The position numbers and the translations under genes were made by a program. Positions 1 through 19,314 of a stretch of DNA of 25,156 nucleotides are shown here, in pieces. Every line of letters begins with the position of its first letter. The first letter of the stretch is position 1. Origin of the DNA: a virus. Location of the stretch: positions 1 to 25,156 of the IMG/VR virus record IMGVR_UViG_3300005435_000048; one strand, 5' to 3'. Below the pieces are notes generated by a model. It did not search any database. It was given only the letters and a program-made list of their open reading frames with translations, and was not told the origin of the DNA.

Positions 1-42
1 ACGCCCCCTCGTGGGTAAAAGTAAATGAGGGATGCGCTACGT

Positions 43-85
43 CCGGCAAAGCGCCGGAGACGCCGTGAGCGGCGTCCTCGGAACT
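43..85 (-). repeat. Double-hairpin element, copy 1
   Basis: Minus strand: TAG stop, AGTT, CCGAG, stem GACGCCG-CTCA-CGGCGTC, TCTCCGG, CCGGC-GCTTT-GCCGG. The downstream gene would lie beyond the window edge. No U-tract is present. Confidence 0.85.
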
Positions 86-316
86 CTACTCTTCCAGTCT
101 TGATAAAAAATTTACAATGTGGTCACCCAGCAACCGTGCCTCATCGGGGGTGAATTCCAACTCCAACGATTGTCCAGGATCCCCGACCTGTGTAGCCAGT
201 AACGTCAGGGAAATTAACCGCGCTGTTAAAGGGGCGTACATGATTCCGGTTTCGATAACTACGTTGCGGGCTAACGCCAGGTCTACACGTTTCGCCCAGC
301 CTCTTACCGATGCCAT
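86..316 (-). CDS. Hypothetical small protein
   Basis: 76 aa. Contains RVDLALARNVVIETGIMYAP, then QSLELEFTPDEARLLGDHIV. The last part resembles a short helix-strand unit. Its TAG is the first triplet of double-hairpin copy 1. Not recognised. Confidence 0.6.
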   Translation of the reverse strand: MASVRGWAKRVDLALARNVVIETGIMYAPLTARLISLTLLATQVGDPGQSLELEFTPDEARLLGDHIVNFLSRLEE

Positions 317-322
317 TACTGT

Positions 323-709
323 CTAGCTCCTTAGTATCTTGTCGAGGATAGCCAGCAGCCCGAAGGCGAGTTGTTGCTGCGGGGTGGCGCCGCGTGGTGA
401 GGGCTCCGCCGACGGCGCTCGCTTGGCCACCTTGGCCGTCTTCGCGGGGATGGCGTCGAGCGGGAAGTGTTGCTCCGGCCCGACGGGCGTCTTCCTGCGA
501 CGGCGCTTGACCGGTTTCGGCTTTACCGGCGGGCCGGAGCGTATCGTCCAGAGATCGCCCTTCTTTATGACTTTGCCAGCCAGCTTCGACTGATAGAGAG
601 CGTTGTACGCCACTCGCTTATCGATGCCGGTAGCGGTGGCCACGTCGTTGGTCGATTTCGGGCTTTCCGCTAGCGACTCCACGAGTTTACGTCGAATGCC
701 CTTATCCAT
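323..709 (-). CDS. Winged helix-turn-helix-like DNA-binding protein
   Basis: 128 aa. Residues 5-58 (RRKLVESLAESPKSTNDVAT, then ATGIDKRVAYNALYQSKLAG and KVIKKGDLWTI) have the helix-helix-turn-helix-wing order of winged HTH domains. A strongly basic linker (KPKPVKRRRRK) and a Pro/Ala-rich region follow, then a short helix at the end. It is probably a DNA-binding regulator or silencing protein; no specific family is claimed. Confidence 0.6.
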   Translation of the reverse strand: MDKGIRRKLVESLAESPKSTNDVATATGIDKRVAYNALYQSKLAGKVIKKGDLWTIRSGPPVKPKPVKRRRRKTPVGPEQHFPLDAIPAKTAKVAKRAPSAEPSPRGATPQQQLAFGLLAILDKILRS

Positions 710-980
710 GGTTGCCCCCGAGGAACTTAACCGAATTCGACGTGCGTGTGTACTGCCCGAGCAGCCGTCCGGTAAGGATGTTGAAGACTTCCACCGTCGC
801 GCCGACCTTGGCCCAGCGAGCTTCGATCAGCGCGCCCATGTGCGCGCGCTTCGGGTCGGCATAGTAGCGGTACGGGTACGCCTTGCGCGCGTTCGCGTCC
901 CAGAGGCGATAGGGACGGGCGGTGCCGTCCGTCGTCGGCTTCGGGTAGTGCTTGCGGTAGAGAATGTTGACGACGCTCAT
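702..980 (-). CDS. Hypothetical small basic protein
   Basis: 92 aa from an ATG overlapping the previous stop; the longer frame beginning at 1064 is rejected. Aromatic-rich N-terminus (VVNILYRKHYPKPTTDGTAR; PYRLWDANARKAYPYRYY), then GATVEVFNILTGRLLGQYTR, which looks like a beta hairpin. It overlaps the winged-helix gene by 8 nt. Confidence 0.6.
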   Translation of the reverse strand: MSVVNILYRKHYPKPTTDGTARPYRLWDANARKAYPYRYYADPKRAHMGALIEARWAKVGATVEVFNILTGRLLGQYTRTSNSVKFLGGNHG

Positions 981-1219
981 CCCTGCACCCCTTTCTTCAA
1001 CGATGCGTTGCGGTGCTTCGAGCAGCCGGGCATGTGTCCGAATGCTGAGCCGCACTCGCTGCACTCTTCATACTCGGTTGCGATCGCTCCGCTCAACTTC
1101 TCGCAACGCATCGTTGCGTCGGCTACGTCGCGACCGTCGTACACGATCACTTCCCGCCCTTCTTCGTCAGTGAACAGCACCGCGCTGCCCTCGACGTAGA
1201 ACTTTCCACACGCACTCAT
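977..1219 (-). CDS. Hypothetical small Zn-finger-like protein
   Basis: 80 aa from the ATG after leader copy 1. N-terminal MSACGKFYVEGSAVLFTDEE, later CEKLSGAIATEYEECSECGS and HMPGCSKHRN: three or four Cys plus His in C-x2-C...C-x2-H spacing, likely one zinc site. Function unknown. The stop overlaps the next ATG (ATGA). Confidence 0.65.
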   Translation of the reverse strand: MSACGKFYVEGSAVLFTDEEGREVIVYDGRDVADATMRCEKLSGAIATEYEECSECGSAFGHMPGCSKHRNASLKKGVQG

Positions 1220-1222
1220 TAG

Positions 1223-1240
1223 TAGTCTCCGTATGAGAAG
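1223..1240 (-). promoter_or_regulatory. 18-nt leader motif, copy 1
   Basis: CTTCTCATACGGAGACTA, minus strand, 3 nt before the ATG at 1219. Confidence 0.8.
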
Positions 1241-1250
1241 AGTTAAAATC

Positions 1251-1298
1251 CCGGCAAAGCGCCGGAGACGTGGTCCTTTCGTCCACGTCCTCGGTACT
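1251..1298 (-). repeat. Double-hairpin element, copy 2
   Basis: Minus strand: TAG stop, AGTA, CCGAG, stem GACGTGG, 9-nt loop, CCACGTC, TCTCCGG, then CCGGC-GCTTT-GCCGG. Leader motif copy 1 begins about 10 nt later. Confidence 0.85.
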
Positions 1299-1532
1299 CT
1301 ACTTGCCCCCATAGCAAGCGTCCCACCCGTGCTGCAGCAATCGCTCCGCTTCCGGACGCGGTACGTCAACCTCCTCCGCACTAGCGCGCTCCGGATCGAT
1401 CCGGGGTAGCCCGAGCTTGGCCGCTCGGCGCGCTAGCCGGCGAATGCGCTCCGACGCTCCCGTGTACCGGGCTAGATGGAGGCGTACCGGCCGGCCGTCC
1501 ACCGCGAGCAGCGTCACGCGTAACAGCTTCAC
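1299..1532 (-). CDS. Hypothetical basic small protein
   Basis: 77 aa, with many Arg residues (RLHLARYTGASERIRRLARR) and a terminal EAERLLQHGWDACYGGK. Its TAG is the first triplet of double-hairpin copy 2, as in two other genes here. Confidence 0.6.
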   Translation of the reverse strand: MKLLRVTLLAVDGRPVRLHLARYTGASERIRRLARRAAKLGLPRIDPERASAEEVDVPRPEAERLLQHGWDACYGGK

Positions 1533-1738
1533 CGCCGCACCTGTCCGGAACCGGTCGGCACCACGGGGTAATCGAAGGTCGTTACGTGCTCCAGCGACCC
1601 CTTGGCTGCTGCTTGGAATAGCGGGTCGGCGGGGTCATAGCCACCGGCCCAACCGCGCACCGCGTCAACGACGTACTCGGCCCAGTCGGCGTTGGTAACA
1701 TCCGGCACCGCCGGTAGGCTAATCACCAGCATTGGCAT
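1529..1738 (-). CDS. Hypothetical small protein
   Basis: 69 aa. Starts MPMLVISLPAVPDVTNADWA and continues with EYVVDAVRGWAGGYDPADPL. Not recognised. It overlaps the preceding gene by 20 nt and the following by 4 nt (ATGA), which favours translation. Confidence 0.6.
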   Translation of the reverse strand: MPMLVISLPAVPDVTNADWAEYVVDAVRGWAGGYDPADPLFQAAAKGSLEHVTTFDYPVVPTGSGQVRR

Positions 1739-2048
1739 CGTCTTGCCCCTTCCGTATTGGGTGGCCTTCCGCGTCGTACCGCGTCGGGTCGGCCGCTGGA
1801 ACGTTCCAGCCGAACATGCTGCCCGCGACCATCGCCTCGCGCTGCGCGGGTGTTACCCCCAACGTGCCATTGAGGCGATCGACGACCCCCGGCGTCGCCG
1901 CGAGCAGCAAGGACTCGTCGTCTTGTAATTCGTGATAAACAGCTTCACCACGCCTGATCAAGATCAGGCGCTTCGTGACGTCGTTCATCGCATAACACAT
2001 CTTCGGCAACCCGTCAGCGACGGGCCGCGTCCTATCTTCCCTGGACAT
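1719..2048 (-). CDS. Hypothetical protein
   Basis: 109 aa, Shine-Dalgarno GGGAGAG before the ATG. Contains NDVTKRLILIRRGEAVYHEL, then DDESLLLAATPGVVDRLNGT and a helix with TPAQREAMVAGSMF. Not recognised. It overlaps the next gene by 20 nt. Confidence 0.6.
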   Translation of the reverse strand: MSREDRTRPVADGLPKMCYAMNDVTKRLILIRRGEAVYHELQDDESLLLAATPGVVDRLNGTLGVTPAQREAMVAGSMFGWNVPAADPTRYDAEGHPIRKGQDDANAGD

Positions 2049-2069
2049 GATGCTCTCCCGTTACTTCTC

Positions 2070-2119
2070 CCGGCAAAAGCGCCGGAGATAGCGCGCAGTA
2101 CTCGGCGCGCTATCCTCGG
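2070..2119 (-). repeat. Double-hairpin element, copy 3
   Basis: Minus strand CCGAG, stem GATAGCGCGC, loop CGAGTACT, GCGCGCTATC, then TCTCCGG and the constant hairpin with one extra T in its loop. The variable stem is 10 bp, longest of the four. It lies before the 109-aa gene, which has GGGAGAG rather than the leader motif. Confidence 0.85.
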
Positions 2120-2219
2120 GGCTTTAATACCCGACGTTACATGTTGTCCTCCGTTGGTAAAGTGTCGACGGGCTCAAGCCCCCGTCGTGGCATCGTCTAT
2201 TCGTCAGGTCGTCAGGTCT

Positions 2220-2543
2220 TCATGTGTCATCCAGCCAAGTCAATAGGAACGCTAGAAAGACTTCGCGCTTCCGTTGCCCGGTCGCCGTACACGGCCAGTA
2301 GTCGAAGCCGTCGGGCACGCCACCGAGCGCATTCAGCATCCGTGGGACGAGCTGGTACATGTCCTTTCCAGGGTGTGCCAGGTTAAAGCGGTAACAGAGG
2401 CCGAAGCGTGTCTCATCGCCCCACTTATCTTTCACGTCGATCGCGTCCACCACGTCGTCGTAGGTAAGAAGCTCGCGCACCGCGTCGAGCGGATCCGCGT
2501 ACGTCTTCGGTGGTGGCAGGGGTTTAACGTCGCTTAATCGCAT
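2220..2543 (-). CDS. Hypothetical protein
   Basis: 107 aa. Begins MRLSDVKPLPPPKTYADPLD, with later GDETRFGLCYRFNLAHPGKD and a terminal helix with REVFLAFLLTWLDDT. Not recognised. After its stop come about 100 nt with a GACGGG/CCCGTC hairpin (2168-2187) and a possible 18-codon frame (2193-2137) that has no Shine-Dalgarno. Confidence 0.6.
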   Translation of the reverse strand: MRLSDVKPLPPPKTYADPLDAVRELLTYDDVVDAIDVKDKWGDETRFGLCYRFNLAHPGKDMYQLVPRMLNALGGVPDGFDYWPCTATGQRKREVFLAFLLTWLDDT

Positions 2544-2555
2544 GTCGGTCTCCCG

Positions 2556-2735
2556 TCAGTGGACCGTCGCCTTCGGGTCCGTCCATTCCAGGAACTCCAC
2601 GAAGCCGTCGCGGTCGATTAACCGCTCAGCGTAAAGTCCGCGTGCTTCCGGGGTCTTGAAGTACTTCTCGCGGGTAAGCAACCCCGCGCTGCTGCGCTTG
2701 CCGAACTCGCGCCACCTTAACCCGTACTCCAACAT
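2556..2735 (-). CDS. Hypothetical small protein (59 aa)
   Basis: Reads MLEYGLRWREFGKRSSAGLL, TREKYFKTPEARGLYAERLI, DRDGFVEFLEWTDPKATVH. The ATG is preceded by AAGGAGA at 7 nt, and codon third positions are GC-rich like the neighbours. The stop is 13 nt before the next ATG. Function unknown, but the Shine-Dalgarno and the fit in the gap make it a convincing gene. Confidence 0.65.
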   Translation of the reverse strand: MLEYGLRWREFGKRSSAGLLTREKYFKTPEARGLYAERLIDRDGFVEFLEWTDPKATVH

Positions 2736-2749
2736 CGGTATTCTCCTTG

Positions 2750-2971
2750 TTAGTGGGATTTCGCCCGCTCGTACTTGTCGGGCAACTCTACGTCGTCGCG
2801 CTCCAACCTATTCATCAAGTCCAATGTACCGACCGCCCAGCACTCGGCCTCTATGTAGCAATCTTCGCAGCCGATCGTCAGCACGTGCCGCACCCCTTCA
2901 GCATCGCGGTAGATGACCGCGAGCCACTCCTGACGGCGCCGGCTGAATAGGATTCGCGCGTTGCGATTCAT
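2750..2971 (-). CDS. Hypothetical small protein
   Basis: 73 aa from the ATG after leader copy 2; the in-frame upstream ATG would read through the leader. Contains RILFSRRRQEWLAVIYRDAE, then LTIGCEDCYIEAECW with three Cys. Not recognised. Confidence 0.65.
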   Translation of the reverse strand: MNRNARILFSRRRQEWLAVIYRDAEGVRHVLTIGCEDCYIEAECWAVGTLDLMNRLERDDVELPDKYERAKSH

Positions 2972-2974
2972 TAC

Positions 2975-2992
2975 AATCTCCGTATGAGAAGG
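2975..2992 (-). promoter_or_regulatory. 18-nt leader motif, copy 2 (two changes)
   Basis: CCTTCTCATACGGAGATT on the minus strand, before the ATG at 2971. Upstream are an ATGCG.CG/CG.CGCAT imperfect stem and a GGTGC-GATT-GCACC hairpin, a diverged double hairpin. Confidence 0.7.
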
Positions 2993-3049
2993 TTGCAGGT
3001 GCAATCGCACCACCATGCGGCGCTCGTTAGAACGTCGCATAGGAGCTGA

Positions 3050-3361
3050 CTACTTGCTTGTCGTTCCAAGTTCCATGTTGCCTATCTGCACTAAATCACC
3101 ACCGCCGGTGGATACGACCGACGAAACGTACTTGTGAAACTCGATCTCAGTCATGACGCTGTCGGCTACTGAGTTAGCCAACATCGCTACTGACCGCGCT
3201 CGCGCTGGATTCGATTCGCCACGTCGAAGCGCATCCATTTCGTCGAATAGGGCATCGCGCAACCCTTTAGCGGTGCGTGTCATGGGTTGCGGCAACCGCG
3301 TCGCGTTCCCGGCAACCCTCTTTCCGGGTACCATCGATAGGTCTGCTTTCGATCTTGACAT
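3050..3361 (-). CDS. Hypothetical protein
   Basis: 103 aa with a good Shine-Dalgarno (AAGGAGA, 9 nt before the ATG). Helical middle GLRDALFDEMDALRRGESNP, then ARSVAMLANSVADSVMTEIE. The arrangement of a helix pair around a conserved N-P/A-R-A-R resembles small phage proteins of unknown function. No family claimed. Confidence 0.6.
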   Translation of the reverse strand: MSRSKADLSMVPGKRVAGNATRLPQPMTRTAKGLRDALFDEMDALRRGESNPARARSVAMLANSVADSVMTEIEFHKYVSSVVSTGGGDLVQIGNMELGTTSK

Positions 3362-3980
3362 TTGCTAATCTCCTTAGTTCAGACGACGCTGACATAATTT
3401 CAGCGACGACGCGAGCGCCACGCGTACCGCTGATCCTAGCCACTGCTCTTTTAACTTTCAACGGCCATTGCTTCATTACTTCCTGGCATCCGGTAGCCCG
3501 CTCGCTGGGGCAGACACTATCGATCAATGCGATGGGAACGAACGACTCGGCATACCCAAGTAAGCCTCCGCACACGCAGCAGAAATACTGCCCAACGTAA
3601 GTACGTGGTGGCGGAGTGGGGTCTGTTACATAGTACATGAAATAAGTGCTGTCGCGAACTACGGGTTTACCTCCGGGGGAGTAGGGGAGTTTCACGTCTA
3701 GTCGGCGTTCTATGGCGCGAGCAACGCCCGAAGCTCCGTGATAGCACCAGCGCTCTACCCACTTCTGGGCGATTCCCCCGACTGTCACTTCATCACCCCA
3801 CGTACCGTGCATCGCTAGCGTTCGGTACGCGGCCCATATACAGGCATCGGCTACCGTTGGGAAAACGCGCCCGTGCACGATTTTCGTAGGATAGCCACTG
3901 TGCGCTTGGAGGCGTATCTCCATTCGGTCTCGCCAGACGAAGTATATTGGGGCAAAGTACGTCTCGGGTTGTACTATCAC
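3267..3980 (-). CDS. Hypothetical protein with Zn-type cysteines; long overlap with the next gene
   Basis: 237 aa from a GTG overlapping the preceding TGA. Contains TYFAPIYFVWRDRMEIRLQA, VFPTVADACIWAAYRTLAMH, and a FCCVCGG with a later VCPSERATGC that might bind zinc. The last 31 codons overlap the next gene and its Shine-Dalgarno by 95 nt, much more than any other pair here. So the C-terminus may be an undetected frameshift or a lost stop. Not recognised. Confidence 0.55.
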   Translation of the reverse strand: MIVQPETYFAPIYFVWRDRMEIRLQAHSGYPTKIVHGRVFPTVADACIWAAYRTLAMHGTWGDEVTVGGIAQKWVERWCYHGASGVARAIERRLDVKLPYSPGGKPVVRDSTYFMYYVTDPTPPPRTYVGQYFCCVCGGLLGYAESFVPIALIDSVCPSERATGCQEVMKQWPLKVKRAVARISGTRGARVVAEIMSASSELRRLANVKIESRPIDGTRKEGCRERDAVAATHDTHR

Positions 3981-4729
3981 GCCATCCTCCCTTCGCACTC
4001 CGGCCCGTAGCCCGAAGCGACCGAGGACGGCACCGTCAGCTTGCGCCCGCACCGACCGCACCGGCCTTCGTGCCACACCTCGCACTTCGCCAGTTCGGCG
4101 TCGTTCTTCGGAGCCAGCGCCGTGCGCAGGAACCAGACGAGCGCCTTGACGGACGGTGCCTGCACGCTTATGCGCGACTTAGCTGAGTGCCGGTAAACCT
4201 GCGCACCGTCGGGCCAGCGTCCGTCCTCGGGCCACATCGTTCCGACGAACGTGAAGTCCTCATTGTTGTCCGGTCCGGTCATCACCTTACAGAACGTCGG
4301 GGCGACCGGGCGCTCCGAGGTAGGTGTCCAGTCCTTCGGCCGCTGAAATTGATACGTGAACCGCGTACCGGTGGACCGCGACACGACCGTGACCGCGGCG
4401 TTGCCAGCGCGCACGAACTCCAGGATGCGCTCACGTCCGGCGAGCTGGCCGTTGAGTACTTCGGGCGTAAGCTGCAAAGCAGTGCGGGGCTGCGGTGCTT
4501 GTAGGTGCGCGCTGCAGCCGTGTAACGACTGGTAGCGCGACGTGTCCCGCGACGGCCGCGCGGCGTAGTACTTAGCATCATCGGTCGGGAGGCCCGCTTC
4601 GCGCCGGAAGAGGACGTCAAGATCGGATGCTGGCACGTCGGGCTTAATCGATTCCGCTGCCCGCGCGTTGTTGTAGAAGTCGTTCGCGTCGGTTTTCTGC
4701 TGATCTGTAGGTTTGCATCTTCGTACCAC
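3977..4729 (-). CDS. DUF6011-type protein with C-terminal Zn motif
   Basis: 250 aa. The last 40 residues read CEVWHEGRCGRCGRKLTVP, SSVASGYGPECEG, the DUF6011 zinc finger (C-G-R-C-G-R-x-L...S...G.GP.C). The middle (RFTYQFQRPKD; PTFCKVMTGPDNNEDFTFVG, then TMWPEDGRW) is a beta-rich domain often found with it. The family is common in phages and has no assigned activity. The TGA overlaps the next GTG (GTGA). Confidence 0.75.
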   Translation of the reverse strand: MVRRCKPTDQQKTDANDFYNNARAAESIKPDVPASDLDVLFRREAGLPTDDAKYYAARPSRDTSRYQSLHGCSAHLQAPQPRTALQLTPEVLNGQLAGRERILEFVRAGNAAVTVVSRSTGTRFTYQFQRPKDWTPTSERPVAPTFCKVMTGPDNNEDFTFVGTMWPEDGRWPDGAQVYRHSAKSRISVQAPSVKALVWFLRTALAPKNDAELAKCEVWHEGRCGRCGRKLTVPSSVASGYGPECEGRMA

Positions 4730-4731
4730 GA

Positions 4732-4749
4732 TAGTCTCCGTATGAGAAG
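4732..4749 (-). promoter_or_regulatory. 18-nt leader motif, copy 3
   Basis: CTTCTCATACGGAGACTA, minus strand, 2-3 nt before the start codon at 4729. Confidence 0.8.
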
Positions 4750-4795
4750 GTGCTGCAAGAGCGCAGCGGTCAGCGCACCGGGGTGAATGCGTTGA

Positions 4796-4814
4796 CCGAC
4801 GCGCTCGGCGTCGG
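4796..4814 (-). repeat. 7-bp hairpin in intergenic gap
   Basis: Minus strand CCGACGC-CGAGC-GCGTCGG, perfect 7-bp stem, about 45 nt before leader motif copy 3. It is a diverged counterpart of the double-hairpin elements. No U-tract follows. Confidence 0.55.
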
Positions 4815-4825
4815 ATTACTTACAT

Positions 4826-5098
4826 CTACTCCTCGACGTGTACGCCCTTGGCGTCGCTTACAAGCTCGCCCGGCGTCCAGGTCCAGCCCGCGCGCAGCGC
4901 GTACTGGAACGCTTCCTTCTTGTCGAATACGCGTGCCTTGCGCTGGTCAATAGTCGATGGCACTTCGTTCTCCACCATTCGCTTGTCGCTATCGTCGCGG
5001 TCCATGAACGTCGTTGCGTATTCCCGCGTCGCCGTGTTGCCCTTGTCGTCGCGCGATATGACGCGATAGACGACGTACATCTGTGAACGTTGTGTCAT
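4826..5098 (-). CDS. Hypothetical small protein
   Basis: 90 aa. MTQRSQMYVVYRVISRDDKG, then a charged middle and FQYALRAGWTWTPGELVSD near the end. Not recognised; possibly a mixed alpha/beta single domain. The start is fixed by the leader motif. Confidence 0.65.
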   Translation of the reverse strand: MTQRSQMYVVYRVISRDDKGNTATREYATTFMDRDDSDKRMVENEVPSTIDQRKARVFDKKEAFQYALRAGWTWTPGELVSDAKGVHVEE

Positions 5099-5102
5099 TG
5101 TT

Positions 5103-5120
5103 TAGTCTCCGTATGAGAAG
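5103..5120 (-). promoter_or_regulatory. 18-nt leader motif, copy 4
   Basis: CTTCTCATACGGAGACTA, minus strand, 4 nt before the ATG at 5098, immediately after double-hairpin copy 4. Confidence 0.8.
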
Positions 5121-5122
5121 GG

Positions 5123-5165
5123 CCGGCAAAGCGCCGGAGACGCGGTGTGCCGCGTCCTCGGAACT
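5123..5165 (-). repeat. Double-hairpin element, copy 4
   Basis: Minus strand: TAG stop, AGTT, CCGAG, then stem GACGCGG-CACA-CCGCGTC, TCTCCGG and the constant hairpin CCGGC-GCTTT-GCCGG. Leader motif copy 4 follows at once. Flanks match copies 1 and 2 while the variable stem keeps pairing with different bases. Confidence 0.85.
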
Positions 5166-5699
5166 CTAAACGGGGGTCAGCGTCTTCAGCTTCCATGCCG
5201 TGCGGCGAGCGCGCAGCCACTTGATGTACTGCAGGGTCTTCTCCGCGTCGTGAGCGAACGCCTCGGCGCGCCTAGCGTTCAACGCAACTACTATGTCGCC
5301 CCCACCGTAAGTCCGTTCGACATGACGCTTACCGTTATTCGCCGTCCAGACGACCGTACCGTGCTCGATGGTTACTTCACTCAGCGGAAGCCGGTGCCAT
5401 ACCCCTGATGAGTGCCTAACCCCAAACGTGGCGGGGATGTATTCGCGCACCCACACCGCGTCGCGCAGCGACCGTGCTTCGGTCGCCTGCGCGCGTTGCT
5501 CGATCAGCCGCGCTTCCTGCAAGACCGCCTGCACTTCCAGCAAGTCGCGAGAAAGTTCGTACGGCGCGTGCCCCGAGCCGGGGCAGACGCCCTGAAACGT
5601 ATTCCACTGGACTGCGTAGCCGTGCTTCGCTAGCACGCTGTTGGGAAGTCGTTGCTTACGACCGCAAAGTTGACACTCGCCGTAGTGGGTAGCTTTCAT
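5166..5699 (-). CDS. Zn-finger phage protein of unknown function
   Basis: 177 aa from the ATG after leader copy 5. The first 50 residues contain GECQLCGRKQRLPNSVLAKH, GYAV, then FQGVCPGSGHAPYELSRD, a pattern widespread in phage proteins that read C-x2-C-G-R...L..HGY......G.C.GS....E.S. A coiled-coil segment follows (LLEVQAVLQEARLIEQRAQA). The C-terminal 80 residues are mixed. Function unknown. Its TAG is the first triplet of repeated hairpin element copy 4. Confidence 0.75.
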   Translation of the reverse strand: MKATHYGECQLCGRKQRLPNSVLAKHGYAVQWNTFQGVCPGSGHAPYELSRDLLEVQAVLQEARLIEQRAQATEARSLRDAVWVREYIPATFGVRHSSGVWHRLPLSEVTIEHGTVVWTANNGKRHVERTYGGGDIVVALNARRAEAFAHDAEKTLQYIKWLRARRTAWKLKTLTPV

Positions 5700-5703
5700 T
5701 TCG

Positions 5704-5721
5704 TAGTCTCCGTATGAGAAG
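5704..5721 (-). promoter_or_regulatory. 18-nt leader motif, copy 5
   Basis: CTTCTCATACGGAGACTA, minus strand, 4 nt before the ATG at 5699. This is the one copy with no hairpin in front, because the preceding gene ends almost on it. Confidence 0.8.
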
Positions 5722-5724
5722 GGT

Positions 5725-5967
5725 TTACCGCATCGCGGCGCGGTACCAACGACGTACGTCGCTGGGTAGTTCAGTTCCTCGGTAATACCACGGCTCAGCG
5801 TTGTATACTTCACCACACGGCACAACGAACGTCTTGCCATGGTCGTAGTAGATATCCAGCGTCGTAGCTCCAACGTCGCTAGTCAATCCCGTATTTACCG
5901 TGACGTCGGGAGCACGGCCGGGTACGCGGTGCGTCGTGGTCAGCTTGGGTTCGGGGCGCTTAGCCAT
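5725..5967 (-). CDS. Hypothetical small protein
   Basis: 80 aa. Basic, proline-containing N-terminus (AKRPEPKLTTTHRVPGRAP), then a beta-type stretch ending FVVPCGEVYN and RWYRAAMR. Not recognised. It starts right after the 68-aa gene and ends 3 nt before leader motif copy 5, so no hairpin separates it from the next gene. Confidence 0.6.
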   Translation of the reverse strand: MAKRPEPKLTTTHRVPGRAPDVTVNTGLTSDVGATTLDIYYDHGKTFVVPCGEVYNAEPWYYRGTELPSDVRRWYRAAMR

Positions 5968-5968
5968 G

Positions 5969-6175
5969 TTACACCAACTTCAGGTCGCGAGCGTACTCGA
6001 ACGCGCTGCGGTGATAATCCCGCGGGTCCAGGAAGCCGTCATCGATCGCTTCGCTGACGTCGTCGTCCCACCACTCGATCAGCGTGTTACCGTCGAGGTC
6101 GTTAAGGCAGACGTGCGCGCGGTCGCGCTCGAACCACGTTTGCAGCGTCGTGTCTTGCATCGTGTACAGGGCCAT
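5969..6175 (-). CDS. Hypothetical acidic small protein
   Basis: 68 aa from the ATG at 6175 placed directly after leader motif copy 6. The longer upstream frame is rejected because it would run through that motif. Contains TTLQTWFERDRAHVCLNDLD, then TLIEWWDDDVSEAIDDGFLD. Not recognised; an acidic accessory protein. The next gene starts 1-2 nt after its stop. Confidence 0.7.
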   Translation of the reverse strand: MALYTMQDTTLQTWFERDRAHVCLNDLDGNTLIEWWDDDVSEAIDDGFLDPRDYHRSAFEYARDLKLV

Positions 6176-6177
6176 CG

Positions 6178-6195
6178 TAGTCTCCGTATGAGAAG
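6178..6195 (-). promoter_or_regulatory. 18-nt leader motif, copy 6
   Basis: CTTCTCATACGGAGACTA on the minus strand, ending 2 nt before the ATG of the 68-aa gene. It contains the Shine-Dalgarno CGGAGA, but the CTTCTCATA part is conserved well beyond ribosome-binding needs. Confidence 0.8.
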
Positions 6196-6221
6196 GGTTA
6201 CATCGAGCCCAGATGGACTCA

Positions 6222-6246
6222 GACACGGTGCTCATAACACCGTGTC
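6222..6246 (-). repeat. 9-bp perfect hairpin before a leader motif
   Basis: Minus strand GACACGGTG, loop TTATGAG, CACCGTGTC: a perfect 9-bp stem. No U-tract follows, so it is not a standard terminator. It lies 27 nt before the leader motif of the 68-aa gene and occupies the place of the double hairpins found before other leader motifs. Confidence 0.6.
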
Positions 6247-6248
6247 GG

Positions 6249-6763
6249 AAGCATCTAGTGGTGACGATCTACTCCGCTCGTCGTCCGTCTTCGCGGTCAG
6301 CGGGGTTGTTCGCCCCGGCTGTCTCTTGTTCAATTCCCTTTCCGCGTGAGTTGGATTGGAGCGCGGCCGATCAACACGCGCTTGATGTAAGGACGCCGAT
6401 CGTCGGAGCGGATAGCGGTGGCCGTTTCCGGATGCACGCATTTAACCACTGGATCGGTACTACGGCCGAGTCGACGGCGCCTTGGAGCGGGCCTGCAATC
6501 CACCTTGGTTCTTTTTGTCTTTTTTCCCGTGCCCTCGGGGCTTGACTTTCAATTGACCGGGGCGGCAGCGTGGGAGGTGTTAGCTGAATGATGAGGCCTG
6601 CCTTTGAGGAAGTAAAGCCCCACCTTTAAGCTCCCGCAAGTCTCGGTTTTAACAGGGCTTTTACCCCTAAGCGGGTCGCCAGCCACGGCATTATAGTACC
6701 GCGTGCGCCCGCGCGGGGCGTGTTGGGCTTGTCCCCCTATAGACCGCGCCGCGCGTCGATCCA
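6249..6763. other. Gene-poor stretch of about 515 nt, no convincing gene
   Basis: No frame on either strand shows a family, codon bias or Shine-Dalgarno-supported start; the frame at 6767-6549 is probably chance. The stretch holds an interrupted inverted repeat at 6612-6664. It also has a GCCCTCGGGGC hairpin next to a T-rich run (plus strand, about 6506-6542), a CGGGG/CCCCG hairpin near 6300-6320, and a TATAAT on the minus strand near 6690. It could be an origin, a structured RNA or a remnant of an insertion. Confidence 0.4.
6612..6664 (-). repeat. Interrupted inverted repeat
   Basis: On the minus strand GTAAAAGCCC (6664-6655) and GGGCTTTAC (6620-6612) are complementary apart from one extra A. 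The enclosed 34 nt contain TTAA on both sides and a GACTTGCGGGAG segment. A later CTCCC could pair with GGGAG. This supports a folded RNA or a cruciform next to the helicase gene. The function is unknown. Confidence 0.45.
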
Positions 6764-6829
6764 TCACGAAGCGCGACTTCCACGTCGCGACGTATCGAGC
6801 AGCCGGTAGGTGCCACGTTTAGGTTTCAT
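6764..6829 (-). CDS. Possible 21-residue peptide overlapping the helicase stop
   Basis: ATG at 6829 overlaps the helicase TGA (ATGA). It encodes MKPKRGTYRLLDTSRRGSRAS and then stops. The coupling resembles real genes elsewhere in the window, but the peptide is short, basic and unrecognised. It could also be the truncated beginning of a gene lost in the gene-poor stretch that follows. Confidence 0.3.
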   Translation of the reverse strand: MKPKRGTYRLLDTSRRGSRAS

Positions 6830-8271
6830 CGACGCTTCCTACTGTACGCGCGCAGCGCATCCAGTAGCGCGCCTTGCGTGCGGGCTTTTCCGCGCAGTCC
6901 ACCCAACACGGCTTCGTCCGTCGTACCGCGCGCGACTAGGTGGTGTAGGAAGACGCGCTCTGTCTGGCCTTGCCTCCAGATACGCTGGATGAACTGGTCG
7001 TACAGCTCGTAGTTCCACAGTAACGAGTACCAGATGACTGCGCGCCCCGTCTTCTGCAGGTTAAGCCCGTGCGCTACGGACTGCGGCTGCGCGACGATGC
7101 ACGCTAGCTCGCCAGCGTCCCACGCCGCTACGATAGCCGCCGTGTCCTTCATGCTGACGCCCCCACCGACTCTAGGTACGTCACCGTAGCCGGCTTTCTT
7201 CAACGCGCGCTGGATGCGCGCCGCGTCGTGTAGGAACTCGTACGCGATCAACGTCGGGTGGCCCTGTAACTCCCCCATGAGCTCGACTAGTGCGACGCTC
7301 TTCGCGTCGTGGAACTCCTTGACGCGGCGTTTAGCTTCGTTCGGTTGCGCGTCGAGGTAGACGCCGCCGTTCGCCAGTTGGCGCAGCTTGCCCCCCAGGA
7401 CGGCCGCGTTCACCGCCGTAATCGCTTTGTTACGCCCAAACTCCAGTAGGAAGTCGCTCTCGAACTTGTCGTACGCTGCGCTCGCCTTCGGTGGTAGCTC
7501 GACGTAGGTGTTGGACGCGACCAACGCGGGGAGGTCCAGGTAATCGGCGCGGTCCATGCGTAGGATGTACGGCGCAATGGCAGCGTAGATCTTCTCTTCC
7601 GCGCCGGGGCGCGGTACATAGGTGTACCCGCCGAAGCCCGTCTGGTCGAAGTACTGCATCCGGTAGTGCGTGATGTACTTGCCTAGAGATTTCCCTAGGT
7701 CGAGGCAAAAGACCTGCGAGAATAAATCGTGCAATCCATTAGGGGCAGGCGTACCGGTCAGGATGTAGCGCCGCCGGAACTGGTGCAGCATCCGCCGGAT
7801 GATCTTGAATCGAAGAGTGCCGGAGTTCTTCACTAGCGTTGACTCGTCGATGCAGAGTATATCGAACGGCCACTTGTCGCGATTCTTGCCTAGCTTTTCT
7901 TCCAACCATGAGAGACCGTCCGGGTTAATCAGGTAGATGTCGGCCTTGCGCCGCAGCGCGGCGTCCTTGCGCGGTCCGTGCAGTACCTCCATCTTCAGGT
8001 GCTGGAAGTCGCGCCACTTCGTGCGTTCGGCCGGCCAGACTAGGTGAACCACGCGCAGCGGGGCTATGACCAGCATGCCCCTAGTCAGCTTCTGGGAACG
8101 GAGGACGTCGAACGCGGCGAGCGTGATGCTCGTTTTACCTAGGCCTACTCAGCCCGGATCGAGAAAGAGCCCCGCTGCCCCTCGGGACACGAGAAAGCGT
8201 ACAGCCTTCTGAGCGTATGCCTTGGGCTTCCACGGGAGTCCGCTCGAGCCGGGCGATCCTCCGTTATTTTG
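6826..8271 (-). CDS. SF2/SNF2-like helicase, interrupted in Walker A by a stop-containing 9-nt insertion
   Basis: The frame opens at a GTG (8271) overlapping the HNH stop, with GGAG 11 nt upstream. No ATG precedes the P-loop. It reads WKPKAYAQKAVRFLVSRGAA, then GLFLDPG, TGA, V, G, LGKTSITLAAF. The rest is intact: MLVIAPL (Ia), ILCIDESTLVKN (II), YILTGTPAPNG (III), QSVAHGLNLQ (V), QFIQRIWRQGQ (VI). The C-terminus KARTQGALLDALRAYSRKRR is typical. Removing TGA-GTA-GGC gives D-P-G-L-G-K-T and 478 residues. Starting at the ATG at 8076 would leave 416 residues with no ATP site. So either ribosomes bypass the insertion or the gene is dead. TGA at 6826-6828 is its normal stop, so the code is not reassigned. 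Confidence 0.88.
8143..8151 (-). other. 9-nt insertion TGAGTAGGC in the helicase P-loop, candidate translational bypass site
   Basis: On the minus strand the codons run GAT CCG GGC, then TGA GTA GGC, then CTA GGT AAA ACG. The glycine codon before the stop (take-off, 8154-8152) and the last codon of the insertion (landing, 8145-8143) are both GGC. A peptidyl-tRNA-Gly that leaves the first and re-pairs with the second would resume at CTA and make a canonical P-loop. T4 gene 60 uses the same logic: GGA take-off, stop codon next, GGA landing. No experimental evidence exists here. Confidence 0.6.
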
Positions 8272-8917
8272 CACGATTTAATAATCTCCAGCGTTTCCAA
8301 TACAGTCGGACTCGTTTACTGGCGCTTTGACGACGTTCCGGTGTCCAACACTTCTTCAAAGATTCGTGCAGTGCTTTTCGTGATTCTTCGCTCCTATTTT
8401 CATATGTATTTTTACAGGAAGAAGATATCCTACGACGAGCTTCTTCTGTATGGTGTCTGCCAAACATCGGGTGTTTGCTACCTGTACGACCATAAGCAGG
8501 GGACAATGGCCCGTCGCGGCCGTACATTGGGTTTCCGCTGCCGCTTTTCAGTTTACCCCAGGCTCTACGTTGTTCTGGAGTCCAGTAACGCTTGAAGACA
8601 CCTTTTCGTGAAGCATCCATCTGGTTATCACGATTAGTTCCTAGCCACAGGTGATCCGGATTTACACAACGTTTGACGTCACAAGAATGGCATACCATTA
8701 AGCCTTCAGAAATAGGTCCTAGGTACCATAAGTAAATTAAAACATGTACGCGCGAGCTAGTGCCGGGCATGCACCTATGTCTACGCAACCTAGGATAGCC
8801 GTTCGTCCATAATAGCCCCGTCCAAATCCAGCAGCCAGTTATCAGGTCTTCTACAATACAAGATTCTAATTGCTCGATGTAATCGTAGAAGCGTTCTTCG
8901 TCCGAACGATAGGTCAC
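8264..8917 (-). CDS. HNH homing endonuclease with NUMOD3-type repeats
   Basis: 217 aa from a GTG overlapping the VRR-NUC stop. The HNH core reads CWIWTGLLWTNGYPRL, RVHVLIYLWYLGPISEG and LMVCHSCDVKRCVNPDHLWL, followed by GTNRDNQMDASRKG. The middle has NUMOD3-like short repeats (GSGNPMYGRDGPLSPAYGRT; SKHPMFGRHHTEEARRRIS). The C-terminus is basic. It is inserted between the usually adjacent VRR-NUC and helicase genes and is markedly AT-richer than both. Its TAA overlaps the presumed helicase GTG start. About 110 nt downstream is the 9-nt stop-containing insertion in the helicase P-loop, so this enzyme is the candidate agent that brought it. Confidence 0.9.
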   Translation of the reverse strand: MTYRSDEERFYDYIEQLESCIVEDLITGCWIWTGLLWTNGYPRLRRHRCMPGTSSRVHVLIYLWYLGPISEGLMVCHSCDVKRCVNPDHLWLGTNRDNQMDASRKGVFKRYWTPEQRRAWGKLKSGSGNPMYGRDGPLSPAYGRTGSKHPMFGRHHTEEARRRISSSCKNTYENRSEESRKALHESLKKCWTPERRQSASKRVRLYWKRWRLLNRAK

Positions 8918-9243
8918 AGCTTCGCTTTCGCCTTCCCGAAGACGCGCTGTAGCTTCAGCAACTCACCTAGCCACGCGATCGCGGCATCGCTGTCGTCGGT
9001 CCACGTTGCGTATTGCTTACGGTCCACCAATTCTCGAAGGAACTTGTTCTGCAACGGCGTCAGCTCTTCCTTCGGTTTCTTAAATTCGACGAACGCTGCT
9101 ATGCCGTTCGGTAGCAGGAAGAGTTGGTCGGGCCACCCTTTGTGTCCTAGCCCGTCCATCTTGCGGTGCATGATCCCATTCGCGACGGCCCACCGCACGA
9201 CGCGGTCCTCGATCGCCGACTCCTTCTCTCGACGCTTACGCAC
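8914..9243 (-). CDS. VRR-NUC domain nuclease
   Basis: 109 aa from GTG, overlapping the J-domain gene end by 8 nt. Reads ESAIEDRVVRWAVANGIMHR, then KMDGLGHKGWPDQLFLLPNG, then IAAFVEFKKPKEELTPLQNK. It has the E...GWPD...ExK catalytic set of VRR-NUC (PD-(D/E)XK superfamily) enzymes. Stand-alone viral members are structure-specific nucleases and are commonly encoded directly before an SNF2-type helicase. Here the HNH gene separates the two. The TGA overlaps the HNH GTG (GTGA). Confidence 0.92.
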   Translation of the reverse strand: MRKRREKESAIEDRVVRWAVANGIMHRKMDGLGHKGWPDQLFLLPNGIAAFVEFKKPKEELTPLQNKFLRELVDRKQYATWTDDSDAAIAWLGELLKLQRVFGKAKAKL

Positions 9244-12641: not shown

Positions 12642-14554
12642 CACTCTCCTCTCGGTAACTTGGTCAACTCCGTCCACCGCGTCGCGCTCCACGCGCCCTC
12701 GGACAGCATCGGCACGTCGAACGCTACGTCGGCCATCGCGTCGCGGAGGCGCCGCATCTCCGGCACCCGCGCGCCCTTCGGACACTCCGCCAGCAGTTCG
12801 TCGTGCACGTTAAGGTCCAGTTCACCGTCCTTCGCGATCTCGGCGTAGTTGCACATGGCCTGCTTGGTATTGTCTGCTGCGCTGCCCTGGATGAGCGTAT
12901 TCAGCATCTTGTACTCGAACGTAATCGTCTTCTTCGCACCGTTAGGTAGCTCGATCTCGCGCGGCGCTTCGCAGTAGTACTCCCTCCCGCCCCACGTACG
13001 CAGCGGCTGGTTCCGCGCCGCGCGGTCGCGTAGCCCCTCCGACAAGTCCTTGATGCCGGGGATGCCTCGTTTGTGCGCGTTACGCAGCTGTGTGGCGGAC
13101 TCCACCGAGAGCGCCATGGCGCGCGCCAACTTACCGATGCCCATGCCGTAGATCAAGCCGAAGTTGAGTATCTTGATCGGCTTGCGCTTGACTTCCATGT
13201 TCAACATCTCGGAAATCAACTTCTGCACGAAGACGTGCATATCCAGCCACGGGTCTTTCTGGTAAGCTTCCAGTAGCAAGCCGTTCTCGTAGTGTGCTAA
13301 GATGCGCAGCTCTTGCGAGTGGTAGTCGCGATTGAGCAGCACGCGCCCCTTACGTGGCACGACGTAGCTGCGCACCATCGGCAGCGGCGCGCGCTGCAAT
13401 AGTTGCGACAACGCTGGCAACTTCTGCAAGCCCGCCAGCGCAGCCATCAGCTCGTCCTTCTCCTCCAGATTCGTGGTTATATTCTGCAGGTTCGGCACGC
13501 TGGAAAGCCGGCCGGTGCGCGTACCCTTCCGGGCGCCGCTGGAGTGATAGTCCTGTGCCACCTGATTCCACGACGTATGGATCAACCCACCGGTCCGCTG
13601 CGCGGTAGCCAGCCACGGCGTCAGGAAGCCCCGTAGCGCGCCGGCCACCGTGGCGCGGTACGTCAGCGCGGCGAGCAGGGGGGCGTCCGTTATAGCCGCC
13701 GCTAACGCGGTCTTTTTGGTGGACAACTGGCCCGTTGGGGTACGCTCCCACTTAGTCTCATCCATCAGTCCGGATCGCTGGAGCGCGATCACTAACTCAT
13801 CGTCGCTGTCAACGTTGAGCCCCTTCGTCTTCAGTCGCTTGCATAGCCACGCGTCCGCGTCGTTCAACGCAGCGTTGTAGCGGGGTACGTCGCGCTCCAG
13901 CCCGCGCAGGTCCACCGCTAGCCCGCGCCGCTCCGACGCTAGTAGGATGGGCATCAGACGCCGCTCGCGGTCGTAAGCTGCACCCATGCCCCGGTCCACC
14001 ACGACTTCTTGATAATACTTTTGAAAGAGCGCGTAAGTTCGGTCCACGTCGCCGATCGCGTAGCGTCCTACTAGGTCGCCGGGCGCCTCGCTGATGTGCG
14101 CCCCCCACTTCTTGTCGTTCTTCTTGACGATCCCCTGCGCGATGAGCCACGCGCGGACGGCGTCGCGCTCGTTCGGGGGCAGCCCCAGCACCTGCTCCGC
14201 CACCGGCTTCAAGGAGAGAGTCGAGCGGTCGGGGTTCTGAAGGAATATCAACAACAATGTATCGTGAGTACGGTCCCAAGGAGGCAGTGGAAGACCGAAA
14301 TAGCTTTCTGCTAAATCTCCATCAAATTTGAAATTGTGAGCAAGAATAGGCAACCCAGATGACCAAATACGTTTCAAATGCGAACGAGCATCATTGAATG
14401 AACAGTTATTTCCGGAAGGGTGTCCCCACGCTAAGTAGTACGACTTCACGCCGGGCACCCTAATGGCGACGCCGACTGGCTTCGGCGGATAGTCCGGTCT
14501 CGGAAGTATCCCTTCCGACTCGAAGTCCACGACAACACAACTAGGGGTTGACAA
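12641..14554 (-). CDS. DNA polymerase, family A (Pol I type) with 3'-5' exonuclease domain
   Basis: 637 aa. The start is taken as TTG at 14554, because GGAGG lies 7 nt before it; a TTG nine codons earlier is possible. The exonuclease domain shows VVDFESEG (Exo I), LAHNFKFDGDLAE (Exo II) and GRYAIGDVDRTY (Exo III). The polymerase domain shows RDYHSQELRILAHY (motif A), KRKPIKILNFGLIYGMG (motif B) and LNVHDELLAECP (motif C). All catalytic acids are present, so the enzyme should replicate and proofread. There is no sign of a 5'-3' nuclease domain, as in T7-type phage polymerases. The start lies inside the end of the HNH gene. Positions 14290-14420 are distinctly AT-richer than the rest of the gene. 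The stop overlaps the next start (TGATG). Confidence 0.95.
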   Translation of the reverse strand: MSTPSCVVVDFESEGILPRPDYPPKPVGVAIRVPGVKSYYLAWGHPSGNNCSFNDARSHLKRIWSSGLPILAHNFKFDGDLAESYFGLPLPPWDRTHDTLLLIFLQNPDRSTLSLKPVAEQVLGLPPNERDAVRAWLIAQGIVKKNDKKWGAHISEAPGDLVGRYAIGDVDRTYALFQKYYQEVVVDRGMGAAYDRERRLMPILLASERRGLAVDLRGLERDVPRYNAALNDADAWLCKRLKTKGLNVDSDDELVIALQRSGLMDETKWERTPTGQLSTKKTALAAAITDAPLLAALTYRATVAGALRGFLTPWLATAQRTGGLIHTSWNQVAQDYHSSGARKGTRTGRLSSVPNLQNITTNLEEKDELMAALAGLQKLPALSQLLQRAPLPMVRSYVVPRKGRVLLNRDYHSQELRILAHYENGLLLEAYQKDPWLDMHVFVQKLISEMLNMEVKRKPIKILNFGLIYGMGIGKLARAMALSVESATQLRNAHKRGIPGIKDLSEGLRDRAARNQPLRTWGGREYYCEAPREIELPNGAKKTITFEYKMLNTLIQGSAADNTKQAMCNYAEIAKDGELDLNVHDELLAECPKGARVPEMRRLRDAMADVAFDVPMLSEGAWSATRWTELTKLPRGE

Positions 14555-17807: not shown

Positions 17808-17890
17808 CACGCCTCCTCCGGTGGCAGCAGCAATCTACCTAGCAAAACTACCGCGAGGATGACCAACAACACATATAAGGAGTCCATCAT
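17807..17890 (-). CDS. 27-residue single-span membrane peptide
   Basis: Begins MMDS, followed by LYVLLVILAVVLLGRLLL, an 18-residue hydrophobic segment with one Arg, and ends PPEEA. The ATG overlaps the Ro60 stop (ATGATGG), with GGAAG 9 nt upstream. Its TGA overlaps the following start, which is preceded by GGAGGA inside this gene. Such coupling on both sides argues for translation. The role is unknown: a small inner-membrane peptide, perhaps tethering or host-modifying. Confidence 0.6.
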   Translation of the reverse strand: MMDSLYVLLVILAVVLLGRLLLPPEEA

Positions 17891-19314
17891 GGCGCTACTT
17901 CCTCCGCTTCCAATTCACGAATGTAGTCGAACACCGCTTCGCTCCAGCCGTCGATGCGGTTCCACGCGCCGAAGCCGACGCCGTTCTTGTACGTCGCTAC
18001 GTTTATCATGTAAGCGATCTTACCAGCGTCCGGCGCTCCTACTGCGTCTTGCGATTCTTCGTCCGTCATGACGATTAGCCGCTGGTACCGTCCCGACACC
18101 CCCAGCACCGCGCTTCCGATCCGCGTACCGTTCGAGGGCACCGCACGTTGGATTGCGTCCGCCAGGGCGAAGCCCCGTCGCGCGGGTACGAGAGCGTGTT
18201 CATTCGAAAATGCGTAGATGTCGATCTCTTCGCACACCTCTCGTGCTAGAATGGCGAGACCCAGCGCGGCGTCCTCTCGCGTTAGCTCCGACTTCGCCGA
18301 AACTTGCGACTGCCGCATGGAAGGCGACGTATCGATCAGCAGCACGGTCTTACCGGGCAATCTATCGCGCCCTTCCAGGCAGCGCAGCATCGCCGGCTCG
18401 ATCAGGTCTTCCCAGCCGGGGCAAGCTCGCGCCGCTGCGATAAACCGGAACGGTAACACGCGATCGACCTTGACGTTATCCAGCGCGCCAGCCACCGCCT
18501 TGCGATCGACGCCCGCGTCGCGCATGTTGCGCAGGTTACGGAGCAGCGCCAACGCGCCCAGCTTATTGTCGGCTAGCAACCGCTCGAACGTCTCGCGTTT
18601 GTCCGCGCCGCCAGAGAGCGCGACCTCCCACGTATCGGGGGTCGTCAACTCACCCGCGATGAGCCGGCGGTACAGGTCTTCGCGCGGCGACAGCACGCGA
18701 CGCATGTTCAGCGCGCGCTCCGCTTTCGTGTAGACCGTGGTGGCTTTCTCGCCAACACCGATCGTCGGGCGCCCCTTCAGCGCAGCGGCAGTGCGGTCGC
18801 CCGGCTTAGCGTGGCTCAAGAACAGCGCGTCACGCAGCCGCACCTTACCCTCTCGGTCGTACTTCGCTAGCGAGTACTCGTTGAACTTCTCGAACGCACG
18901 CGCGAGCCCCTTCTTGACTTGCGCCGATAGTGGTTGCTTGCCGTCCTTCCAGTAGATGGCTAGGAATTCCGTAATCTCATCTGGACGCTCGATGATCGCT
19001 TCTAGCGTGTGCGCGACGAGCGTCTTGTGCTCCGGCAACCGCGCCATCTCGCGCGCCAGCAGGAGCGGCACGTGGCGGAGCTTCATCTCGTGGCGTGCCT
19101 TGATTGCGAGCGCCATGACGTCCACTGGCACGCACTTAGCGACCAACGACTTAATGCGATCGGCGGTCGAGACACCGCTCTCGTAGAATGAATCCTCCCA
19201 GAGCAGACACGCCAGAACGGCGCGACGCAGTTCGCGCAGAGGGGTCGAATGCACGGCACGCGTGCCTTCGTGATTATAGGCCGGGGGTGCTTTTACCGGA
19301 GTATTGAGTTTCAT
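17887..19314 (-). CDS. rsr: TROVE-domain Ro60 orthologue (Rsr-like), Y RNA-binding protein
   Basis: 475 aa. The N-terminal about 310 residues form the alpha-helical TROVE repeat ring, with blocks such as RELRRAVLACLLWEDSFYESG near residue 28 (quoted to 21 letters at most in parts: LACLLWEDSFYESG), VRLRDALFLSHAKP near 155 and ALLRNLRNMRDAGVD near 262. The C-terminal part is a von Willebrand A domain with an intact MIDAS: VLLIDTSPSM, then SNGTRIG, then IVMTDEESQD. Ro60 rings bind misfolded RNA ends and Y RNAs; in Deinococcus, Rsr works with PNPase. A Shine-Dalgarno-like AAAGGAAA lies before the ATG. The stop overlaps a 27-codon membrane-peptide gene. The Y RNA just upstream on the same strand makes this a Ro60/YrlA locus, and the two are probably cotranscribed. 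Confidence 0.92.
   Translation of the reverse strand: MKLNTPVKAPPAYNHEGTRAVHSTPLRELRRAVLACLLWEDSFYESGVSTADRIKSLVAKCVPVDVMALAIKARHEMKLRHVPLLLAREMARLPEHKTLVAHTLEAIIERPDEITEFLAIYWKDGKQPLSAQVKKGLARAFEKFNEYSLAKYDREGKVRLRDALFLSHAKPGDRTAAALKGRPTIGVGEKATTVYTKAERALNMRRVLSPREDLYRRLIAGELTTPDTWEVALSGGADKRETFERLLADNKLGALALLRNLRNMRDAGVDRKAVAGALDNVKVDRVLPFRFIAAARACPGWEDLIEPAMLRCLEGRDRLPGKTVLLIDTSPSMRQSQVSAKSELTREDAALGLAILAREVCEEIDIYAFSNEHALVPARRGFALADAIQRAVPSNGTRIGSAVLGVSGRYQRLIVMTDEESQDAVGAPDAGKIAYMINVATYKNGVGFGAWNRIDGWSEAVFDYIRELEAEEVAP

Follow-up and report, generated by a model that had tools for sequence, protein, structure and literature searches.

Start-associated sequences (SAS) and extended start-associated sequences (ESAS) are described for Cluster K mycobacteriophages and Microbacterium Cluster EF phages (PMC3203893, PMC7302621). 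According to their authors, changes in the arms of the Cluster K ESAS do not generally support RNA pairing, and there is little support for a hairpin. R1.1 of phage T7, which serves as the model for RNase III processing signals, is a hairpin of 60 nt that contains bulges and mismatches (PMC4858673, PMC8708148). Here we describe a repeated hairpin element in the IMG/VR virus record IMGVR_UViG_3300005435_000048. The window analysed is the whole 25,156-base record, which is probably a fragment of a phage genome and carries nearly all of its genes on the minus strand. The element is present in seven copies, all of them intergenic and on the coding (minus) strand, and two mutually exclusive folds are feasible in each.

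A second repeat accompanies the element. A 16-nt leader, CUUCUCAUACGGAGAC, which includes the Shine–Dalgarno motif GGAG, precedes six minus-strand genes, compared with a mean of 0.18 occurrences in shuffled sequence (n = 100). The leader sites are all on the minus strand with no more than one mismatch over the 16 nt, each lies ahead of a start codon, and five of the seven elements are directly upstream of one. The leader resembles the SAS in that a short sequence recurs at the ribosome-binding sites of a number of non-structural genes, for the most part in a single orientation. As in the SAS/ESAS phages, a second repeated feature lies directly upstream at many sites and is sometimes found without the first.

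Architecture and covariation of the element

The sequence-only reading had placed copies at 43, 1251, 2070 and 5123. All four are present, on the strand of all neighbouring genes, and their stem-1 arms match those listed. The consensus RNA runs UAGAG(U), CCGAGGA, the variable stem and then UCUCCGGCGCUUU(U)GCCGG. The hairpin described as constant, CCGGC-GCUUU-GCCGG (hairpin 2), has this form in three copies, while 2070 has CCGGC-GCUUUU-GCCGG. The minimum-energy fold of each of these copies in isolation is a single long hairpin with two 1x1 mismatches. From the stop codon, it consists of a lower stem, a 1x1 mismatch, CCG/CGG, an A.C mismatch and an upper stem; in copy 1 the lower stem has 7 bp and the upper stem has 8 bp and a loop of 4. 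The suggestion that two exclusive folds compete is stronger than originally put, because the lower stem UAGAGU/GCUUUG pairs too, which brings the long fold of these four copies to 17–19 pairs. The GCUUU(G) of the lower 3' strand forms the loop when hairpin 2 folds, and the CGG lies in the 5' arm of that hairpin; the long fold and the tandem fold containing hairpin 2 are therefore mutually exclusive.

The covariation claimed for the first stem is borne out by the alignment of the four copies, in which all 64 cells of the long-fold pairs hold standard pairs and four of the 16 pairs are altered on both sides. No two-sided pair change was seen in slid-alignment controls. The covariation is numerically modest, coming from four sequences, and has no exceptions. 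All four copies have the same sequence in the strand that the two folds share (CCGGCGCUUU). The unshared arms differ with pairing retained, on both sides in the upper stem and from GU to AU and UG to CG in the lower arm. From these four copies, we infer that invariant dual-partner bases beside covarying unshared arms are the pattern to be expected if both folds matter.

A covariance model of the four copies scored 64.9–75 bits on its own members, and the next-best minus-strand match in the window scored 9.0 bits. The proposed search with such a model thus revealed no additional copy at the sequence level, either in the window or among relatives, whereas three were found by structure; the refuting condition set beforehand, a lack of further copies, is therefore fulfilled in part only. 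Folding of the regions upstream of all six leaders gave the same architecture in unrelated sequence at 2998, 4752 and 6205 (Table 1); neither these copies nor the leader had been noted before. Over all seven copies the long fold has 17–21 pairs, or about two A-form turns, and in every copy it is interrupted by internal loops of the 1x1 or 1x2 type.

A sequence-free descriptor was devised after the folds at 2998, 4752 and 6205 were known. In its strict form, with 1x1 mismatches only, it gave five minus-strand matches (the four related copies and 4752), none on the plus strand and none in 400 shuffles. It was then relaxed stepwise, first to permit 1x2 loops, which adds 6205, and then to permit one extra upper-stem mismatch, which adds 2998. 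The loosest form matched seven places on the minus strand versus one on the plus strand (2963–3011), with a mean per shuffled strand of 0.105 (200 shuffles) or 0.10 (400 shuffles). Across 105 other viral loci (about 1.6 Mb, both strands) it gave seven matches versus 9.3 in shuffles, and is therefore at background there. Six named phages had 0–3 matches per strand versus 0–1.7 in shuffles. The highest counts were on the minus strand of AXL_3 (3 versus 0.2 shuffled) and the plus strand of TM4 (3 versus 0.4); the former lie antisense within plus-strand structural genes and none of the latter is located at a SAS, and neither set was accepted as copies of the element.

The long fold is predicted to lie below the tandem fold by 5.6, 5.6, 2.1 and 2.3 kcal/mol at 43, 1251, 2070 and 5123, and by 3.2, 8.6 and 2.5 kcal/mol at 2998, 4752 and 6205. 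When 1251 was folded with longer flanks the tandem form became the predicted optimum, so the energy balance between the folds is close. Hairpin 2 is predicted to form in all seven copies once their initial 12 nt are made unavailable for pairing; this block is a stand-in for a ribosome at the stop codon and follows from the general size of the ribosome footprint. In six of the seven copies the minus-strand RNA is more stable than the plus-strand RNA.

Gene junctions, leaders and searches for relatives

Judged from the open reading frame (ORF) lists, six complete gaps between genes within 86–6,329 measure 45 nt or more; every one of them contains one element, as does the cut gap at 1–85. An automatic gene call over the whole window, which relative to the ORF lists mis-started one gene and dropped two, yields 18 gaps of 45 nt or more, with five elements among them. 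With this call, leader and element occur together at four genes, the leader only at one, the element only at one and neither at 44 (Fisher P = 1e-4).

In four of the seven copies, one of the two opening positions of the hairpin is where the UAG of a long ORF starts (offset 0–1). Three of these are among the related copies, in which the element had been said to open with the stop codon of the upstream ORF. The description of the four related copies as gene ends consequently holds for three, since the stop at 2070 closes only a 17-codon frame. Start–stop AUG-UAA pairs occur on the minus strand at 2137–2142 and 4820–4825, each shortly before an element (2070 and 4752, respectively), and the first is preceded by a strong GGAGG. 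Stop-codon readthrough was considered and rejected: the frame after the UAG is open but reaches the downstream gene only at 2998, and is out of frame at 1251 and 5123. Masking of the Shine–Dalgarno sequence by the element, through pairing of GUCUCCG with CGGAGAC of the leader, was likewise rejected: two sites alone, 1251 and 5123, allow this pairing, and accessibility shows no consistent change.

Table 1. Coordinates of the hairpin elements and leaders in the window.
Feature	Coordinates	Strand	Details
Element copy 1	43–89	minus	UAG stop 86–88 at base; hairpin 2 at 43–57
Element copy 2	1251–1302	minus	UAG stop 1299–1301 at base; hairpin 2 at 1251–1265
Element copy 3	2070–2125	minus	Upper stem of 11 bp with loop of 8; hairpin 2 (6-nt loop) at 2070–2085; no leader
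Element copy 4	5123–5168	minus	UAG stop 5166–5168 at base; hairpin 2 at 5123–5137; leader 5105–5120
Structural copy	2998–3053	minus	UAG stop of ORF 3050–3361 at base; hairpin 2 GGUGC-GAUU-GCACC at 2998–3011; leader 2976–2991
Structural copy	4752–4806	minus	7/6/6 bp, 1x1 mismatches U.C and A.C; hairpin 2 GCUGC-GCUCUU-GCAGC at 4752–4767; leader 4734–4749
Structural copy	6205–6258	minus	Upper stem 11 bp; UAG at base; hairpin 2 GAGUCC-AUCU-GGGCUC at 6205–6220; leader 6180–6195
Leader	1225–1240	minus	Before AUG near 1219
Leader	2976–2991	minus	One mismatch; gene 2750–2971
Leader	4734–4749	minus	Gene 3977–4729 (GUG)
Leader	5105–5120	minus	Gene 4826–5098
Leader	5706–5721	minus	Gene 5166–5699; only leader without double hairpin; 25-nt gap to upstream gene
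Leader	6180–6195	minus	Gene 5969–6175

Searches for relatives of the element covered sequence and structure. Rfam gave no match at the gathering score in the window, and neither of two weak matches in 1–6600, which scored far lower (E up to 5), was plausible. The exact 17-mer of hairpin 2 occurs in ten IMG/VR contigs, with stem 1 in the flank of none, and an 18-mer of the leader occurs in no IMG/VR contig. A 14-mer of the leader is present in at least 120 stretches; among the matches listed, two have a repeated shorter core (TCATACGGAG), without the architecture of the element. The element pattern gave one match in 84,980 genomes, in a coding region of Microvirga and lacking stem 1, which was attributed to chance. 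The covariance model run on 27 loci and 16 full IMG/VR records reached at best 15.9 bits, with no convincing copy. The two best matches, which were the ones read individually, do not fold like the element, and the top one is in coding DNA. Word searches of the open-access literature found no description of a two-fold hairpin at gene junctions.

A possible role in message processing

Of the roles put forward in the sequence-only reading, an mRNA processing or stability site is the leading idea. Our tentative preference is that the element is a reusable intercistronic mRNA module with two folds that would combine processing with gating by the ribosome. It lies between co-directional genes, mostly just ahead of the common ribosome-binding leader, and no promoter or terminator signal is consistent across the elements. 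The size and mismatches of the long fold, which resemble those of RNase III substrates, are the reason for favouring an intercistronic processing element. With the upstream stop codon free of ribosomes, the long form would present a mismatched hairpin of the RNase III-substrate type and would be processed. Processing would divide the transcript into two messages, of which the upstream one would end in a protective 3' hairpin and the downstream one would begin with a short leader. In the UAG-based copies (four of seven), a terminating ribosome would cover the lower and middle 5' arms, and the upper stem and hairpin 2 that remain would be too short to be good RNase III substrates. Translation of the upstream gene would in this way delay processing, and the transcript would stay joined.

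Several observations weigh against this proposal. Direct gating by the ribosome fits the four UAG-based copies only: at 4752 the stop codon is 22 nt upstream of the element, at 6205 there is a UAG at the base yet no ORF with a start ends there, and at 2070 the sole overlapping stop is a UAA in a TTG-started frame. Hairpin 2 is invariant among the four related copies and so shows no covariation, and the case for selection on it rests on the three copies of unrelated sequence. The predicted accessibility of the downstream Shine–Dalgarno sequence shows no consistent shift between the folds at the five sites compared, which argues against simple masking of the next gene. No relative carrying the element was found among the IMG/VR records, viral loci and named phages searched.

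The same observations bear on other explanations. The element could serve translational coupling, with the hairpin bringing the upstream stop nearer to the leader or holding a reinitiating ribosome, and the choice of fold tuning the effect. The UAG at the hairpin base in four of seven copies and the adjacent Shine–Dalgarno leader in five of seven would suit such a role, and models of RNA unfolding and ribosome scanning are established (PMC12548453). The stop-to-start gaps of at least 67 nt are, however, long for classical coupling, and predicted Shine–Dalgarno pairing does not differ consistently between the folds; we consider coupling rather unlikely. A 3'-end stabiliser or a weak or Rho-type termination point between the small genes, in which either hairpin 2 or the long hairpin is an exonuclease barrier and bistability is incidental, would account for GC-rich hairpins directly 3' of stop codons and for the pyrimidine run that opens the leader. 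At 1251 the element is followed by AUUUUAAC and then by the leader. The earlier statement that there is no U-tract holds elsewhere but not at this copy, where GAUUUUAAC comes next and a consensus scan calls the site terminator-like. That is one site of seven, and the region contains four such sites versus 5.5 in shuffles. The intrinsic-terminator pattern is absent from the other six elements and 1251 passes a loose scan only, in agreement with the view that the element is not a simple terminator. A plain barrier would moreover need no shared strand, yet one is present in all seven copies, and this explanation seems unlikely to us.

A binding site for a phage regulator, in RNA or DNA, would make the leader and hairpins an operator regulon similar to SAS/ESAS. 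The six near-identical leaders, the mini-hairpin that is possible at the Shine–Dalgarno sequence in the leaders here and in Clusters K and EF, and the TROVE RNA-binding protein encoded in the genome are compatible with this. Nothing connects the TROVE protein to the hairpins, however, and sequence-specific binding cannot explain them when the three structural copies are unlike the other four in sequence, which leaves a regulator site decidedly unlikely. The most improbable of the alternatives, by far, is that the copies are mobile or recombination-derived palindromic repeats, similar to repetitive extragenic palindromic (REP) sequences, with no role in expression. Some REPs begin with GUAG, as do two of the four related copies, and those four are near-identical outside the stem. 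Against this stand the compensatory stem differences, the three structure-only copies, the confinement of all copies to intergenic positions on the coding strand, the lack of a convincing covariance match in the 16 related IMG/VR records and the chance nature of the sole match in 84,980 genomes. Less likely than a processing site are a recombination boundary, as raised in the sequence-only reading, and a DNA-binding site, because the stem varies with pairing kept, three copies share the architecture alone and all are intergenic on the coding strand. REP/BIME repeats are GTAG-headed and accompanied by a RAYT transposase; no transposase was found among the ten large proteins scanned. The loops of hairpin 2 differ from copy to copy, and an N4-type DNA hairpin promoter was rejected on this reasoning. 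The put antitermination RNA of HK022 consists of two adjacent hairpins that modify RNA polymerase; a literature search on an antitermination RNA of this type gave nothing.

Phage operons need unequal amounts of neighbouring proteins from one transcript. If the preferred reading of processing with ribosome gating is right, translation itself would decide where a phage message is cut or kept, in a compact device. It is possible, though doubtful, that the element is a standardised two-state junction anchored to the stop codon at each gene boundary, which terminating ribosomes would switch between a processed and a protected fold, so that it is cut or kept according to upstream translation, and whose copies have diverged until the architecture alone remains. 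As three copies were visible by structure only, similar devices may be overlooked in phage searches based on sequence.

Genomic setting and comparison with known systems

The gene products of the window include a helicase, HNH endonuclease, DnaJ, PD-(D/E)XK nuclease, isochorismatase, family A DNA polymerase, TROVE protein, thymidylate synthase-like enzyme and 5-hydroxymethyldeoxyuridine (5-hmdU) kinase. The helicase and polymerase are 43–47% identical to their counterparts in Pseudoxanthomonas phage PW916, Stenotrophomonas phage AXL_3 and an uncultured spring phage; from this likeness, our guess is a Gram-negative, Lysobacterales-like host. No near nucleotide match to the window exists among 50,697 phage records. 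The best IMG/VR relatives are 46% (helicase) and 53% (5-hmdU kinase) identical, and none was found in IMG/VR for the protein encoded at 3977–4729, near the elements. The thymidylate synthase-like enzyme and 5-hmdU DNA kinase (21901–22920 and 24237–25145, minus strand) together suggest that the phage DNA contains hypermodified thymine. The helicase ORF (6826–8917, minus strand) aligns with the latter part of its family profile alone and is downstream of an HNH/NUMOD3 endonuclease; on these grounds, insertion of a homing endonuclease may have interrupted or truncated the gene. The TROVE (Ro60-like) RNA-binding protein (17887–19314, minus strand) is 46–49% identical to proteins of Brevundimonas jumbo phages and Xanthomonas phages. 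A Y RNA for it was sought and rejected, with no Rfam match and a short membrane-peptide frame in the gap after the gene. Three 31-nt direct repeats lie at 8953–8983, 13829–13859 and 17825–17855, the later two being 74% and 68% identical to the first.

The dispersed 17-bp repeats of Cluster O phages (PMC4351075) are, like the elements, palindromes in phage genomes and in many cases intergenic. They are short, conserved in sequence and without orientation, and about one third lie inside genes, whereas the elements are long, oriented, intergenic and covarying. Attenuators and coupling hairpins share with the element the principle that a ribosome on the upstream frame would choose the fold (PMC12548453). 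Unlike attenuators, the elements occur serially between genes, are tied to a stop rather than to stalled codons, and have no terminator fold.

T7 RNase III sites lie between genes. The layout of an RNase III signal, an intercistronic hairpin of about two turns with an internal mismatch or loop, is present in all seven elements, and the element and T7 R1.1 are both hairpins of about 60 nt with mismatches. Only the element has a second hairpin that competes for the same strand and a stop codon within its base.

The leader agrees with the SAS in being a conserved short repeat at the ribosome-binding site in one orientation, and its sequence differs from the Cluster K and EF consensus. A small hairpin at the Shine–Dalgarno sequence is predicted for the SAS of Clusters K and EF and for the leader here (-1.9, -3.1 and -2.8 kcal/mol), and is possibly a feature common to them. 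The SAS sites of TM4 and AnnaSerena showed no two-fold architecture, and we read the TM4 ESAS halves as conserved DNA repeats of the GTTGAC/TCAACAG type. An ESAS is a sequence-conserved 17-bp inverted repeat with a variable spacer that immediately precedes the SAS; here, three of seven copies are unlike the rest in sequence, the upper-stem arms compensate and, unlike in the ESAS, changes in the arms keep RNA pairing. A device of the kind proposed here would give the SAS/ESAS repeats of actinophages, for which there is no explanation, a concrete counterpart at the RNA level.

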